From Pseudomonadota bacterium (lineage in GTDB: Bacteria > Pseudomonadota > Gammaproteobacteria > Burkholderiales > Sulfuriferulaceae): a stretch of DNA of 64,000 nucleotides. Made by a program: the position numbers and the translations under genes. The stretch's first letter is position 1. Each line of letters starts with the position of its first letter. Shown here piece by piece: positions 5,208-64,000 of this stretch. The stretch is taken from the NCBI GenBank assembly GCA_021845925.1, contig JAJZUW010000007.1:62001-126000 (forward strand), given 5' to 3'. A model generated the notes under the pieces. It was given only the letters and a program-made list of their open reading frames with translations, searched no databases and was not told the DNA's origin.

Positions 5208-5337
5208 ATGCCTGCGCCTGACGTCGCGGTTTTTATGCCTGCGCCTGACGTCGCGGTTTTTATGCCTGCGCCTGACGTCGCTGTTTTTTATGCCTGCGCC
5301 TGACGTCGCTGCTTTTTATGCCTGCGCCTGACGTCGC
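5208..5337. repeat. tandem repeat made of copies of the comM 3' end
   Basis: Five copies of the 20-bp core ATGCCTGCGCCTGACGTCGC start at 5208, 5235, 5262, 5290 and 5318, each of the first four followed by a 7-8-bp T-rich spacer (GGTTTTT, GGTTTTT, TGTTTTTT, TGCTTTTT). The last copy is the actual 3' end of comM: with the preceding TT it encodes the final residues and the TAA stop. The array fills the space between the convergent ends of iclR and comM. It looks like local slippage duplication of the gene end; the T-runs might affect transcription termination. Confidence 0.9.
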
Positions 5338-6812
5338 AGGTGAACCGCCTCGGCCATGTGCTGTCGGGTAATGCAGTCGCTGCCAGCCAGATCGGCAATG
5401 CTGCGGGCCACGCGTAAACTGCGGTGCCAGGCGCGGGCAGACAGGTTCAGCTGGCGGATAGCCCGGGATAACAGCTCAAGGGCGGCAGGGGCGGCATGGG
5501 CGTGGGTGTCGATTTCACCGCTGCTCAGCAGGTTGTTCGGTTTGCCCTGGCGGTGCAACTGCTGCAGGCGGGCATCATTGACCCGCATGCGGATGCTGGC
5601 GCTGGCTTCGCCGGTGGGCGCGGCCAGCAGGTCATCCGGATCGATGGCCGGCACATCGATCTGCAGGTCGATCCGGTCCAGAAACGGTCCGGACAGTTTG
5701 CTGCGATAGCGTTCAATCCGGTCCGGCGTGCAGCGGCAGCGTCCGGTCTTGTCGCCCAGATATCCGCACGGGCAGGGGTTCATGGCCGCCACCAGCTGAA
5801 AGCGGGCTGGAAATTCAGCCTGTTGCGCTGCACGCGAAATGCAGATATGGCCGGTTTCGAGCGGCTCGCGCAGCACTTCAATCACGTGTCGGGCAAACTC
5901 CGGTAATTCATCCAGGAACAGGATACCCTGGTGGGCCAGGGAAATTTCGCCTGGGCGCGGGTTGGTGCCACCCCCGACCAGCGCCACCGCCGATGCCGTG
6001 TGATGTGGATTGCGGTATGGGCGGCTTTTCCAGGATTGCGGATCAAAATGACCAGCCAGCGAAAGAATGGCGGCACTTTCCAGTGCCTCGCTATCGGTCA
6101 TGGGTGGCAGGATGCCGACCAGCCGCTCGGCCAGCATGGATTTTCCACTGCCGGGCGGGCCGGACATCAGCAGGGAATGGCCGCCGGCAGCCGCGATTTC
6201 AAGCGCCCGTCGGGCAGCGTGTTGTCCGCGCACATCGGCTAGATCGGGTCGCGCGATCGCCGACTTGCATGTATCTGCAAGTAACGGTGTCTGTAGCAGG
6301 CACTGGTCGTTGAGATGTGCGCAGACCTCCAGCAGGGAGCTGGCGGCCAGAACTCGCCCCGGTGCGGCAAGCACCGCTTCTGCAGCGCTCCGGACTGGCA
6401 GAATGAACTGGCGGGTGCTGGTGGCCGAACCGATCAGCATGGCCATGGCTCCGCGAACCGGACGCAGTTCACCGGTCAGGGCCAGTTCGCCAGCAAATTC
6501 ATGATTGGCCAGCAGTCGGTCCGCAATCTGACCGGAAGCGGCCAGAATGCCCAGGGCAATCGGCAGATCATATCGGCCAGATTCCTTGGGCAGGTCGGCA
6601 GGTGCAAGGTTGACGGTAATCCGGCTGACCGGAAATTCAAAACGGGAATTCTGGATGGCGGCACGAACCCGGTCTCGCGACTCGCGGACTTCCGCTTCCG
6701 GTAGCCCAACCACGGTAAAGGAGGGCAATCCGTTACCCAGATGCGCTTCCACGACCACCTCCGGCGCATGCACCCCGGCCAGGGCGCGGCTGCGCACGAT
6801 GGCGACCGCCAT
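5316..6812 (-). CDS. comM: ComM/YifB-family Mg-chelatase-like AAA ATPase
   Basis: 498 aa from the ATG at 6812, the start that gives the family's MAVAIVRSRALAG N terminus; a longer in-frame reading from 6935 has no family-like sequence. The N-terminal ChlI domain (residues 1-~170) is followed by the ATPase with Walker A GPPGSGKS (~218-225), Walker B ILFLDELPEF and the zinc-like CPCGYLGDKTGRCRC segment, then a C-terminal Mg-chelatase domain. Known role: hexameric helicase promoting branch migration during integration of transformed DNA. It starts 2 bp after the ubiK stop, so both are likely cotranscribed. Its last 20 bp are repeated downstream. Confidence 0.93.
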   Translation of the reverse strand: MAVAIVRSRALAGVHAPEVVVEAHLGNGLPSFTVVGLPEAEVRESRDRVRAAIQNSRFEFPVSRITVNLAPADLPKESGRYDLPIALGILAASGQIADRLLANHEFAGELALTGELRPVRGAMAMLIGSATSTRQFILPVRSAAEAVLAAPGRVLAASSLLEVCAHLNDQCLLQTPLLADTCKSAIARPDLADVRGQHAARRALEIAAAGGHSLLMSGPPGSGKSMLAERLVGILPPMTDSEALESAAILSLAGHFDPQSWKSRPYRNPHHTASAVALVGGGTNPRPGEISLAHQGILFLDELPEFARHVIEVLREPLETGHICISRAAQQAEFPARFQLVAAMNPCPCGYLGDKTGRCRCTPDRIERYRSKLSGPFLDRIDLQIDVPAIDPDDLLAAPTGEASASIRMRVNDARLQQLHRQGKPNNLLSSGEIDTHAHAAPAALELLSRAIRQLNLSARAWHRSLRVARSIADLAGSDCITRQHMAEAVHLRRQAQA

Positions 6813-44626: not shown

Positions 44627-44818
44627 TGGAAATGATTGATTGCAGCTTGATGACGATAGAGTAGAGGATGGTGATGCGCCGGTCAATCAAAAATGAGACT
44701 GATTCTCCGGTTAGGCGCGCATGATGGGGGGATCGCCTTGTTTTGCGCGATATGATGATTCCGATACTGTGGCGGATGCGTGGATTCAGATATACCGTGC
44801 CGGATCTGTGGATTCCGC

Positions 44819-45028
44819 GACTTCGCGCGGAATGACGAAGTGGCCTGTGGCTTCGCGACTGCGCGCGGAATGACGAAGTGGCCTGTGGCTTCGCGACTTC
44901 GCGCGGAATGACGAAGTGGCCTGTGGCTTCGCGACTTCGCGCGGAATGACGAAGTGGCCTGTGGCTTCGTGACTTCGCGCGGAATGACGAAGTGGCCTGT
45001 GGCTTCGTGACTTCGCGCGGAATGACGA
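44819..45028. repeat. tandem 38-bp hairpin repeat, five full units plus a partial
   Basis: Units begin at 44819, 44857, 44895, 44933 and 44971, with a partial sixth at 45009. Each holds a palindrome (CGCGA...CGCGGAAT with neighbouring ATTCCGCG) and a second hairpin CGAAG-TGGCCTGTGG-CTTCG. Differences between units are single bases (ACTTCG/ACTGCG; TTCGC/TTCGT). The array is part of a 656-bp gene-free stretch (44627-45282) between map and maf. No spacers vary, so this is not a CRISPR array. Confidence 0.92.
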
Positions 45029-60527: not shown

Positions 60528-60617
60528 GGAAGCGTGGCAGAGCGGTTTAATGCAGCGGTCTTGAAAACCGTCGTCGGTGCGAGCCGACCGTGAGTTCGAA
60601 TCTCACCGCTTCCGCCA
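60528..60617 (+). tRNA. tRNA-Ser (TGA), host of the island
   Basis: 90 nt with encoded CCA. GGAAGCG acceptor pairs with CGCTTCC; anticodon loop TCTTGAAAA gives TGA; long variable arm as expected for serine. A TAGAAT box at 60481-60486 may be its -10. The last 18 nt plus one more base are repeated at 63594-63612. Confidence 0.96.
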
Positions 60618-60618
60618 A
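60600..60618 (+). other. attL, 19-bp tRNA-Ser 3' end
   Basis: ATCTCACCGCTTCCGCCAA overlaps the tRNA-Ser T-stem and acceptor end, and is found again exactly at 63594-63612. Tyrosine-recombinase islands typically leave such a copy. Confidence 0.85.
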
Positions 60619-60626
60619 TACACTGT

Positions 60627-60654
60627 AACCCCTTGATTTATCAAGGGGTTTTTT
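60627..60654 (+). terminator. terminator of the tRNA-Ser gene
   Basis: AACCCCTTGA / TCAAGGGGTT (10 bp, loop TTTA) followed by T residues. It lies inside the island side of attL. Confidence 0.9.
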
Positions 60655-60670
60655 ATCGACCTCTTCCCTA

Positions 60671-60694
60671 GGTGGTTCACTCTGGTGGTTCACT
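60671..60694. repeat. GGTGGTTCACT repeats at island ends
   Basis: GGTGGTTCACT occurs at 60671-60681 and 60684-60694, and again at 63499-63509 near the right end. Position at both ends suggests integrase arm-type binding sites or a duplicated junction. Confidence 0.5.
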
Positions 60695-60709
60695 CCACGA
60701 GCAGAAACC

Positions 60710-61285
60710 ATGGATATTCCAGCCCATCTCTGGGTCTCACGGCACGGGGTCTACTACTTCAGGCAGACGAGTCGGGTCGCAGGAACCCGTATCAAATTCA
60801 AAGCCGGTCAGTCCGGTGAAGATGGCAACAGCTATCTGCGTAGCAAGCGCATAGAAATCCGTACCAGCCCGCAAGAGTATGCTCAGTTGGAGCAACGTGC
60901 CCAGCAGATGGGCTATCACAATCTGGCGCAGTATCTGAGAGAGGCCGGTTTAAGCCGTGAGTATCTGGTTTCACCCACCACCCGTCAGAAGCAAAAATCC
61001 GACTGGTTGTTTGCCATCAACCGCATTGGCAACAATCTTAACCAGATTGCCCGTCAGTTGAATGCCGGTCATGAAGCCGATGCTGAAATCTTGCTGGTGC
61101 TTGCCCAGATTCAGGAAATGGTGCATCAGGTGTTGAAGCAGGTACCCGTGTCACCAACCACAAGCTGGGGTACGCCCAGGTGGTTGCCGATCCGCTCAAA
61201 ATGGCCTTCACCGATTTTGAAAGGAAAACCCCGTTCGGCAGGAAGGAACAATCCGATAAACGCTGGGTGCACAGACATCTGGTGA
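60710..61285 (+). pseudogene. integrase N-terminus apparently fused to MobC-like mobilisation protein
   Basis: The 191-codon frame starts MDIPAHLWVSRHGVYYFR, which resembles the N terminus of tyrosine integrases found beside tRNA genes. From about residue 45 the sequence changes to a MobC pattern: RIEIRTSPQEYAQLEQRAQQ, LAQYLREAGLSREYL, and AINRIGNNLNQIARQLN. MobC helps open the oriT for the relaxase. After about residue 145 (EMVHQVLKQV) the remaining tail is out of frame with the relaxase segment behind it. It therefore seems a product of two deletions. It could still be translated but an intact mobilisation function is unlikely. Confidence 0.65.
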
Positions 61286-62109
61286 GTGCCGTTGCCAACG
61301 GGGACGTTCAGACCCGTGACGACTTGTGTCGTTATCTGGTTGAGGAACTGGGTATCACTATTACCCGACAGGGTGAGGATTACTTATCGGTGAAATTCCC
61401 CGGTGGCAAGAAAGCCAAACGCTTGCGCGGGGCGTTATATGGCAAGGATGCCGATTATCGCTCTCTGCTGGAGCAATCCAAGCAAGCCAAACAGCCGAAA
61501 TTTCTCACCCCGCAGGAGTTGGAAACTGAGCAGGCTCGCCTGAACCAGTTCATTCAGGAGCGCGAGCAGTTCAATGTGCAAACCTACCTTGCACCCCGAA
61601 CCTTACGCACACTGGCAAAACCAAGTCGCCCCGTCAAAACCCGCAACCCCGTGGCCAATACAACACCAACAACAAGGAGCCCAACCATGAAAACCACGAT
61701 CCGCTTACCCGCCATCAGAAGCATGATTCTGCAGGCATTGAAAATCGCCCGCGAGAAAATCAGGGAAGAACATCACCAACAGCCCGCCCACCCAGTCCAG
61801 GTCATCCAAGCAAAAGACAGAAAAAAATCCATACAGGCCATCAGCCAACTTCGTGATAAAGCCTTCGGGGGAACTGCTCCTGAGATCAGCACCGGCTTTG
61901 CCGAACTCACCATTGCTATCACCGAAGTGGAAACCAGCTTGAGCGAAGCTATCGGTCAACTCAGTCATGCCAAACCCGAGCAGGCGGAAAAGCTCAGACA
62001 GCGCATCTTCCAGCTTCAGCAGCAATTGGTAAAGCTCAAAGCCCAGAAAATGAAACTGCCTGTGCAGGATGAAGAACAGGTTGCGAAGGGAATTAAGTTC
62101 AAGAAGTAG
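61150..62109 (+). pseudogene. C-terminal fragment of a MobA-type relaxase/mobilisation protein
   Basis: A long open frame without a usual N terminus reads VTNHKLGYAQ, then DPLKMAFTDFERKTPFGRKE, KRWVHRHLVSAVANGDVQTR, and GGKKAKRLRGALYGKDADYR, which resembles the region after the nuclease domain in plasmid relaxases. The catalytic tyrosine and HxH region are missing. The last part (from ATG 61687 behind an AAGGAG site, in the same frame) is a Gln/Lys-rich coiled coil (LRQRIFQLQQQLVKLKAQKMK), which may be a separate internal product of about 140 aa. The start is therefore uncertain and 61180 (GTG) could also be used. Confidence 0.6.
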
Positions 62110-62281
62110 CGAGTGGGTACCGCTGGGGAGGGAGGCTGGGATTGAAACGAATTCCCTTGGCTGTTCTCCGAACCACCCAAGGATCAAGTGCCCAGCGCCA
62201 GACCTTCCTGAGTTGGACGGCTACGCCGTGGAGCGCGTAAGATTTGAGCAAAATATTAGCACATCATGGATGGGAGGCATT

Positions 62282-63343
62282 GTGAAGTTAAAGAGAGAAG
62301 CCAAGACACTAAAAGCTAAAGCTATCGCATCGCTGAAACGCGGACTAGAAGCGTTTAATAACCACGACGATGATGGAAGACCGGAGACTGTCTTGCTCAT
62401 GCTCCAGCATGCTTGTGAAATGCTGACCAAAGCATTATTGCTGCAGAAAGGGCAGAACATCTTCGATAAAGAAAAAGGCACCTCCATCGGTCTCGAGAGA
62501 GCATTGAACATTGCCTGCTCAAAAGGTTGGATGAATGCCGCGCAAGCAGGTTCAATTCGCGTAATTGATGCCATGCGCGACCAGGCCCAGCATTGGATGA
62601 TTGTCGTTCCCGAGGACACGCTCTATATAAATTCAAGGGCATTGATCACCACCTTGGATGAGATCTTGACTGAACATTTCGATGACGCACTTGCCGACAA
62701 TCTTCCGGTGAGGGTTCTACCTCTATCTACCCAGCCTCTCCCTGATTTCCTAATGTTAGTGAATCGAGAATACGCTCAGATTCGGGACTTGCTTGCACCT
62801 GGGCGCAGAGCTAGAGACGAGGCCAGAGGGCGCATAACGGCACTACTAGCAATGGAAGCCCATGTCAGTGAAGAAGTGGCTGTTTCCAAAAGAGACTTGG
62901 ACAGAATTGAAGAGGCTATCAAGTCGGACACGCCGGTGGAGCAAGTATTTCCTCGGTTGTTAACTCTGGCGACAAACATTGAAGGAGAAGGGCCGACGAT
63001 TCGTGTCCGAATCACTAGAGATGCCGATGCTCCTGCGGTTCGCTATGTGTCAGGGGATGATCCTGCTGGAGCGGCTGCAATCCGTGAAGTAGATCTTCAG
63101 AAAAAATATCACTGGAGTCCAAGAGCCTTGGCTGAAAAGCTGGAGCTGAACGTTAACAAAGCCAAGGCCGTACGCGACCTCCTGCGAATAGATGAAGACC
63201 CAGCCAACGTCATGGTGTTTGAGTTTGGGTCGCAGAAGCATCCTAGATACTCTGATAACGCGTACCGCGTTCTTCGGGATGCCATTACCCCTGAGCTGGT
63301 TGAACAAGCATGGCGTGAGCATCAGGAGCGTCGACGAAGATAG
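62282..63343 (+). CDS. DUF3644/HEPN-like putative ribonuclease, possible defence gene
   Basis: 353 aa from a GTG at 62282 that follows GGGAGG by 4 nt; earlier ATGs have no such site. The N-terminal ~130 residues are helical and carry R99-D-Q-A-Q-H104, which matches the R-x4-H HEPN ribonuclease motif, placed after a helix-rich start (PETVLLMLQHACEMLTKALLL) as in DUF3644 proteins. The C-terminal part (KYHWSPRALAEKLELNVNKAKAVRDLLRI near 275-303) looks like a winged-helix DNA- or nucleic-acid-binding unit. Many HEPN proteins are toxins or anti-phage RNases. It is the only intact cargo of the tRNA island, and has no antitoxin-like partner. Family match is by eye. Confidence 0.65.
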   Translation: MKLKREAKTLKAKAIASLKRGLEAFNNHDDDGRPETVLLMLQHACEMLTKALLLQKGQNIFDKEKGTSIGLERALNIACSKGWMNAAQAGSIRVIDAMRDQAQHWMIVVPEDTLYINSRALITTLDEILTEHFDDALADNLPVRVLPLSTQPLPDFLMLVNREYAQIRDLLAPGRRARDEARGRITALLAMEAHVSEEVAVSKRDLDRIEEAIKSDTPVEQVFPRLLTLATNIEGEGPTIRVRITRDADAPAVRYVSGDDPAGAAAIREVDLQKKYHWSPRALAEKLELNVNKAKAVRDLLRIDEDPANVMVFEFGSQKHPRYSDNAYRVLRDAITPELVEQAWREHQERRRR

Positions 63344-63593
63344 TGTGTTAATTGGGTGGGTGTCGTGGTAGCAGGAATGGGTTTGGCACTATGTTAAGGC
63401 AGTTGCTTGGGGGGCAAGAAAACCTAATCACCAGGTACAGCTCCGGCTAGATGTCTTAAGTGTACGGGGTATAATGATCCTACCGATAAACTACATCAGG
63501 TGGTTCACTTTGGGGTGTCACGACTTCTTCCAAGATTGAAGAAATCGTCAAACAAATCAAATTGTTACAGATGGTTGGCGCTGAGTCGGGCAG
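63344..63593. other. gene-free right arm of the island
   Basis: No gene is recognised in this 250-bp stretch. A TATAAT at 63470-63475 has no good -35 partner. GGTGGTTCACT lies at 63499-63509. CGACTTCTTC (63521-63530) and GAAGAAATCG (63538-63547) form a 10-bp inverted repeat with one mismatch. Confidence 0.6.
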
Positions 63594-63612
63594 ATCTCAC
63601 CGCTTCCGCCAA
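63594..63612 (+). other. attR, copy of the tRNA-Ser 3' end
   Basis: Exact copy of the 19-bp attL sequence, about 3.0 kb downstream of the tRNA. Confidence 0.85.
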
Positions 63613-63686
63613 ATCAACCTCCAAAGACCTCCAAAAAATCCAGAGATAAACATAAAAACATGGGGTTGTGCAAATGTCAGCGTGTA

Positions 63687-63788
63687 TCTCGGCGACGGGT
63701 ATTTCAAAGCGCTATGTGGATGTTCCGTGTTGTACCGCTCAAACCATTCCGGCAAAGGTTTTTTAACAGGCTTCGAAGTGTCTAGCAA
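63687..63788 (-). pseudogene. IS3-family transposase C-terminal fragment
   Basis: On the minus strand PEWFERYNTEHPHSALKYPSPR resembles the end of IS3-type OrfB transposases (W-x-x-x-Y-N-x-x-H/R-P-H-S-A-L). The frame goes on into unrelated sequence after SPR. The remainder of the element is absent on either side within this window. It lies just outside attR. Confidence 0.5.
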
Positions 63789-63896
63789 ATCCGGGGCAAT
63801 TCACTGGTAAAATTGACGTGCCTGACCTCAACCGGCTCCCTTCATCAACAAAACAGCAGACACCGTTTCCAGCCATGCCGGAAAATCCGTATCATC

Positions 63897-64000
63897 ATGT
63901 CCTACCGCCAAGATACAGACTGCACCGCCATGGCCTCGCGTGACCACGACAACAATTTCAACTTTCTGCGCCTGCTTGCCGCAAGCATGGTCATTTTTGC
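63897..64000 (+). CDS. acyltransferase family protein (partial, 5' end only)
   Basis: From an ATG at 63897 (or the in-frame ATG at 63930) the frame reads toward NNFNFLRLLAASMVIF, which is the usual first helix of membrane acyltransferase-3 (OafA-like) proteins that O-acetylate surface sugars. It runs off the window at 64000, so only about 34 codons are seen. Confidence 0.6.
   Translation, partial: MSYRQDTDCTAMASRDHDNNFNFLRLLAASMVIF

Follow-up and report, generated by a model that had tools for sequence, protein, structure and literature searches.

What is a whole gene doing in a small island where every other reading frame is a fragment? We addressed this question in a window of 64,000 nucleotides (the whole stretch of DNA that was analysed) from a Pseudomonadota bacterium of the Sulfuriferulaceae (assembly GCA_021845925.1, contig JAJZUW010000007.1, positions 62,001–126,000, forward strand), the relevant features of which are collected in table 1. 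An initial annotation had described here an intact gene for 353 amino acids with an R99-x4-H104 motif, and both statements hold: the frame is open from a GTG start preceded by GGGAGG, and R99, D100 and H104 are present as claimed. A longer frame of 424 codons, opening upstream at 62069, was discarded, since position 62282 marks the codon at which nearly all homologues begin. Elsewhere in the window, two tandem repeats were noted, namely an array of approximately 5.8 copies of a 38-bp unit (CTGTGGCTTCGCGACTTCGCGCGGAATGACGAAGTGGC; 97% matches) at 44806–45028, and about five 28-bp units (ATGCCTGCGCCTGACGTCGCTGGTTTTT) at 5208–5341.

Table 1. Features of the island and of its single whole gene (positions in the window; L002 is a Vogesella contig described in the text).
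Feature	Position	Strand	Basis or remark
tRNA-Ser, anticodon TGA (UGA)	60528–60617	+	ARAGORN; integration target, left att core formed by its 3' end
attL core, 19 bp	60600–60618	+	exact direct repeat with 63594–63612
GGTGGTTCACTCT repeats near attL	60670–60695	+	partial copy near attR at 63498–63521
Tyrosine integrase N-terminal remnant, ~25 codons (MDIPAHLWVSRHGVYYFRQTSRVAG)	60710–60785	+	94% nucleotide identity to Vogesella over 60528–60785
Deletion junction 1	60781–60785		integrase codon ~26 fused to mobC over short GGAA overlap; ~14 kb gone
mobC (NikA/MobC-type relaxosome protein), without 3' end	60784–61142	+	96.1% nucleotide identity to L002 1006–1364
Deletion junction 2	61142–61143		465 bp gone; TTGAAGC on both sides
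MobA/MbeA-type relaxase C-terminal remnant, open frame	61143–62109	+	95% nucleotide identity to intact 467-aa relaxase, L002 1393–2796
Ribosome-binding-site-like GGGAGG	62272–62277	+	four bases 5' of GTG start; from sequence
PDC-S19 family HEPN protein gene	62282–63343	+	353 aa, intact; PADLOC PDLC04947 and homologue identity
HEPN domain, aa 1–143	62282–62710	+	AF2 domain model, PDB fold matches, conservation
R99 codon (62576–62578) to H104 codon (62591–62593)	62576–62593	+	presumed catalytic Rx4H
C-terminal region, aa 144–353	62711–63340	+	presumed sensing/regulatory part; conservation, low model confidence
attR core, 19 bp	63594–63612	+	exact direct repeat; homology to L002 stops at 63622, just beyond

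The protein is matched by the PADLOC model PDLC04947 (E = 7.3e-168, covering 1–351 of 355), one of the models PDLC04947–PDLC04955 of PDC-S19, a phage defence candidate consisting of a single gene. It resembles this family over its full length, with nothing in its sequence setting it apart, and PDC-S19 was matched by all 20 aligned homologues, the amino-acid identity being 98% for the homologue from Vogesella and 22–88% for 18 others. From these matches, we regard the gene as intact and as belonging to a candidate anti-phage family that is already on record. According to the passages citing it in PMC11811056 and PMC12988326, the PDC families are candidates from the ‘guilt-by-embedding’ survey of Payne et al.; they are largely without experimental validation (PMC12988326), and no paper naming PDC-S19 was found in the literature searched. 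The single-gene defence ribonuclease proposed by the initial annotation thus gains from a full-length match to PDC-S19, but the idea is not new, as the family is already listed. The setting differs, the gene standing alone in a truncated element and not inside a defence system.

The family named at the outset, DUF3644 (PF12358), was placed within the HEPN superfamily by Anantharaman et al. in 2013 (PMC3710099). Taken alone, the window protein falls below the Pfam gathering score (18.7 against 27.6 bits) and also below the HEPN cut-off; 19 of the 20 family members match DUF3644, with a best value of 4.3e-20. An hhalign comparison with five DUF3644 proteins (97.4%, E = 1e-11) aligned residues 2–139, including the R and H columns, so that the N-terminal helical domain and the R-x4-H are shared, whereas the profile match stops before the C-terminal part.

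A fold search with the full-length model was swamped by unrelated helical proteins, and the N-terminal domain was therefore modelled alone. In the resulting AF2 model (pLDDT 91.7, pTM 0.87), DSSP places helices at residues 2–26, 33–55, 86–103 and 111–133, with E46 and K50 in helix 2 and R99-D100-x3-H104 at the end of the 86–103 helix. HEPN ribonucleases are recognized by Ex3[KR], Rx4-6H and a polar residue following the R (PMC3710099), and the window protein displays all three, the first of them in helix 2. All 20 homologues, some with as little as 22% identity, retain E46, K50, R99 and H104, and D100 is kept in at least 90%; the conservation of R99 and H104, on which the initial assignment depended, is thereby confirmed. 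Compared with the PDB by Foldseek, the domain model found HEPN proteins in all of its best 32 matches, with probabilities of up to 1.00 and TM-scores of up to 0.74. The E-values are modest (0.02–0.3), which we attribute to the HEPN fold being a small helical bundle, but the matches are tellingly uniform. A sequence search of solved structures returned nothing relevant, and a search of a viral fold library nothing useful. Together, the fold matches and the DUF3644 profile match support the HEPN/DUF3644 identity first put forward from the letters alone.

The C-terminal region contains a conserved RYSDNA motif near residues 322–327 and, by eye, a helix-turn-helix-like stretch near residues 279–301. 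Its model has a pLDDT of about 40–75, and the best family signal, to HTH_23, is weak and comes from a single homologue. As this half is poorly modelled, a C-terminal winged helix stays a guess.

The island was originally described as some 3 kb long and bounded by tRNA-derived direct repeats, and this description proves accurate: the 19-bp att repeat (ATCTCACCGCTTCCGCCAA) consists of the last 18 bases of the tRNA-Ser gene plus one, and the two exact copies delimit 2,994 bp, measured repeat to repeat. No further copy of ATCTCACCGCTTCCGCCAA occurs in the window, even with up to three mismatches allowed, and the pair is far above chance (0.01 matches expected per shuffle). These statistics, together with homology to a Vogesella element, rule out an ordinary stretch of genome in which the repeat arose by chance. 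The GGTGGTTCACTCT repeats beside attL are possibly integrase arm sites. Among same-genus genomes, inspection of translations by eye revealed unrelated DUF4102-type integrases directly after the same tRNA-Ser in three loci (L041, L044 and L045), and a radical-SAM-like gene in that place in four others (L037, L038, L042 and L043); the gene upstream of the tRNA-Ser is also the same in several of them. From these arrangements, the tRNA-Ser gene is a used and recurrent integration hotspot in the genus. The right flank (63600–64000) had no match in the same-genus genomes, and a clean empty site beside the present right flank was not demonstrated. On the minus strand at 63597–63788, overlapping attR, a fragment was noted by eye that looks like the C-terminal end of an IS3-type transposase.

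The origin of the island becomes clearer from Vogesella urethralis YM-1, which carries an approximately 95% identical element split over two contigs. The first (L065) reads tRNA-Ser end, whole tyrosine integrase (535-aa frame), primase-like DUF5906 gene, MT-A70 methyltransferase, HsdM, HsdS, the anticodon nuclease PrrC (PADLOC match 1e-144) and the start of HsdR; the second (L002/L066) continues with the end of HsdR, mobC (150 aa) and relaxase (467 aa), both whole, the HEPN gene and att. Part of HsdR (approx. 0.9 kb) is absent between the contigs, and other parts may be missing at the break. Three blocks of the window match this element at 94–96%: 60528–60785 (tRNA and integrase start), 60784–61142 (mobC) and 61133–63622 (relaxase C-terminus to just past attR). 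For the first deletion, the length in table 1 is an estimate that adds the missing 0.9 kb of HsdR to the sequence of the two Vogesella contigs; the second, of 465 bp, took the end of mobC and, from the relaxase, its start and its catalytic part. The mobC remnant still matches Pfam (NikA-like 2.5e-12, MobC 2.2e-07); the relaxase remnant gives a weak NCBIfam MbeA match, the Pfam relaxase domain being found in the intact copy only.

These comparisons recover what characterizes a mobilisable element (IME), namely att repeats at a tRNA 3' end, an integrase, a relaxase and no conjugation apparatus, the integrase and relaxase being intact in Vogesella and reduced to fragments in the window. The window island is thus best described, on sequence grounds, as a tRNA-integrated mobilisable element truncated by two deletions. 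This history takes the gene content of Vogesella as that of the ancestral element from which the window copy descends, which is the simplest reading, not a proved one; under it, the neighbouring cargo, in Vogesella the HsdM-HsdS-PrrC-HsdR cassette, would have been lost together with the integrase. Two deletions, as seen against the nearly complete Vogesella element, account for what had been called a degenerate island, and the gene is its only intact cargo: of the other two reading frames, one fuses integrase to mobC and the other is the C-terminal end of a relaxase. In Vogesella, the HsdM-HsdS-PrrC-HsdR genes (L065, 7705–13208) form an EcoPrrI-like arrangement in the same tRNA-Ser element as PDC-S19, which gives that element two HEPN-type candidate effectors.

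Has the gene been kept for a function, or is it open only because the deletions are recent? Between the window and Vogesella, the HEPN gene shows 28 synonymous and seven non-synonymous differences, and its dN/dS of 0.074 is consistent with purifying selection. The corresponding values are 0.148 for the relaxase remnant and 0.277 for mobC, yet both of these frames are also still open and the contrast with the HEPN gene does not reach significance (Fisher p = 0.15 and 0.07); the deletions may, moreover, be younger than most of the divergence. The selective retention of the gene during decay of the mobility genes, as suggested in the initial annotation, is accordingly not borne out, since the dN/dS contrast lacks significance, the loss consists of two discrete deletions and the relaxase remnant is open; retention by selection is possible but unproved. 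At the other extreme, the gene could be a decaying remnant with no present function. The open mob remnants at ~95% identity to Vogesella would fit such a state, as would the failure to find a sigma-70-like promoter in the island and the decay of the gene elsewhere, the PDC-S19 homologues of Nesterenkonia (L014, 7986–8992) and Rhizobium (L026, 8001–8990) being frameshifted. Nevertheless, the catalytic residues are kept and the dN/dS lies below that of both remnants, albeit not significantly, and we hold a functionless remnant to be improbable.

No homologue was found in any of 17 same-genus genomes, and among 150 relatives only two besides the window genome have one, one of these matches being marginal. 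Phage records contained no homologue, nor did viral contigs when scanned with the protein alone; a profile scan of the viral contigs retrieved three, of which two (L056 and L054) resemble prophage on visual inspection. Where flanks were available, a recognised defence gene lay in the adjoining cassette or within ~3 kb in 11 of 23 cellular and plasmid loci. These 11 loci represent seven unrelated cassettes, and the window copy has no such neighbour left. An HsdS-HEPN-Mrr arrangement with overlapping reading frames occurs in L015; in L003 and L004, a cassette of MmeI-type IIG enzyme, helicase and GIY-YIG protein ends ~60 bp upstream of the HEPN gene, and in L003 GajA lies downstream of it. The MmeI homologue recurs in L005 and L012, and a GIY-YIG gene stands at the contig end in L006. 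Other homologues have as neighbours HsdR (L002), Eco29kI (L019 and L022), a CBASS cyclase (L011), RmrA (L020) or a ThsB-like TIR protein (L025). In the host control, one of 30 window genes matched any PADLOC model, a rough guide given that this control is small and unmatched and that its unit is the gene, not the neighbourhood. Roughly half of the loci with a homologue (L007, L009, L010, L013, L014, L024 and L026, among others) had no recognised defence gene close by, among the part of their neighbours that was checked. The predicted association with defence or mobile genes is nonetheless recovered, through the 11 of 23 loci and through homologues on a mobilisable element and on plasmids.

The MmeI cassette deserves separate mention. 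An MmeI-type IIG enzyme, a DEAD-like helicase and a T5orf172/GIY-YIG protein followed directly by PDC-S19 are conserved in L003 (1944–7943), and also in L004, L005, L012 and L006 in part. The helicase and GIY-YIG genes of this type match no PADLOC model, and the cassette may constitute an undescribed restriction arrangement. In L005 and L012, two large frames on the strand opposite the restriction cassettes were discarded as artefacts of the choice of the longest reading frame.

Such neighbourhoods raise the possibility that the protein is an auxiliary of restriction–modification, a guard ribonuclease triggered by the blocking of restriction, in the manner of PrrC with EcoPrrI, and here stranded and possibly silent. 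Homologues within or beside restriction operons (HsdS-HEPN-Mrr with overlapping frames; MmeI-helicase-GIY-YIG-HEPN) speak for it, as does HsdM-HsdS-PrrC-HsdR on the Vogesella element, and PrrC is likewise a HEPN ribonuclease allied to restriction (PMC3710099). However, the partners are unrelated (types I, IIG and II, CBASS, Rmr and ThsB) and none is conserved, PDC-S19 also occurs in viral contigs with no recognised restriction genes in their list of reading frames, and the window copy is open and conserved with no restriction genes adjoining. We judge this role to be unlikely, to much the same degree as the functionless remnant. Compared with PrrC, the window protein has neither an ABC-ATPase part nor a fixed restriction partner. 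No partner gene was conserved across the family, and the lack of a single conserved partner favours a self-contained effector.

A toxin-like addiction or stress ribonuclease, stabilising the mobile element instead of protecting against phages, is slightly less probable still: HEPN/MNT module toxins (SO_3166, PDB 5yep; 7bxo; 6m6w; 7ae8) are among the closest solved folds (Foldseek probability mostly 0.92–1.00, same Rx4-6H position) and the family is carried on a mobilisable element and on plasmids, but no antitoxin-like neighbour is conserved in 26 loci, the lone gene lies by relaxase and att with no visible antitoxin, and homologue neighbourhoods are rich in defence genes. The window protein differs from these toxins in having no nucleotidyltransferase antitoxin alongside and an extra C-terminal part of 210 residues.

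The reading that we favour, and consider fairly probable, is that the gene encodes a self-contained HEPN ribonuclease-type abortive-infection effector of the PDC-S19/DUF3644 kind. Family membership, the HEPN fold, the invariant active-site residues, the ancestry of the element and the two deletions are shown by computation; ribonuclease activity, dimerisation, C-terminal gating and an anti-phage role are what we infer from them. The N-terminal helical bundle would probably dimerise and so pair the R99/H104 sites for metal-independent RNA cleavage, E46 and K50 helping to form the site. Until an infection cue arrives, the C-terminal half would hold the effector silent; the active enzyme would then degrade cellular or phage RNA, and the infection would be aborted. 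At this locus, the HEPN gene is the last whole gene of a mobilisable element integrated at tRNA-Ser, from which the two deletions took the integrase, a presumed restriction–PrrC cassette and half of the transfer genes.

By description, this effector can be likened to ApeA, Tha and DS-11, in which a single protein likewise joins a HEPN effector to a sensing part, the non-HEPN domains being other ones. Tha is activated by phage tail proteins (PMC11087260), and DS-11 requires its HEPN catalytic residues (PMC13092281). A broader and distinctly more speculative proposal is that PDC-S19 might be a stand-alone HEPN immune ribonuclease with its own infection sensor in an undescribed C-terminal domain, moving from one element to another, serving as an interchangeable second line beside varied first-line systems and able to persist alone once the remainder of its element has gone.

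The locus offers a compact test case for the candidate PDC-S19: a single gene without partners, its active-site residues invariant, from beside which a restriction–PrrC cassette appears to have been lost naturally. Should the gene prove protective alone, PDC-S19 would become a validated single-gene HEPN system. In any case, the island illustrates that defence genes can be stranded on chromosomes through the truncation of a mobilisable element at a tRNA hotspot.
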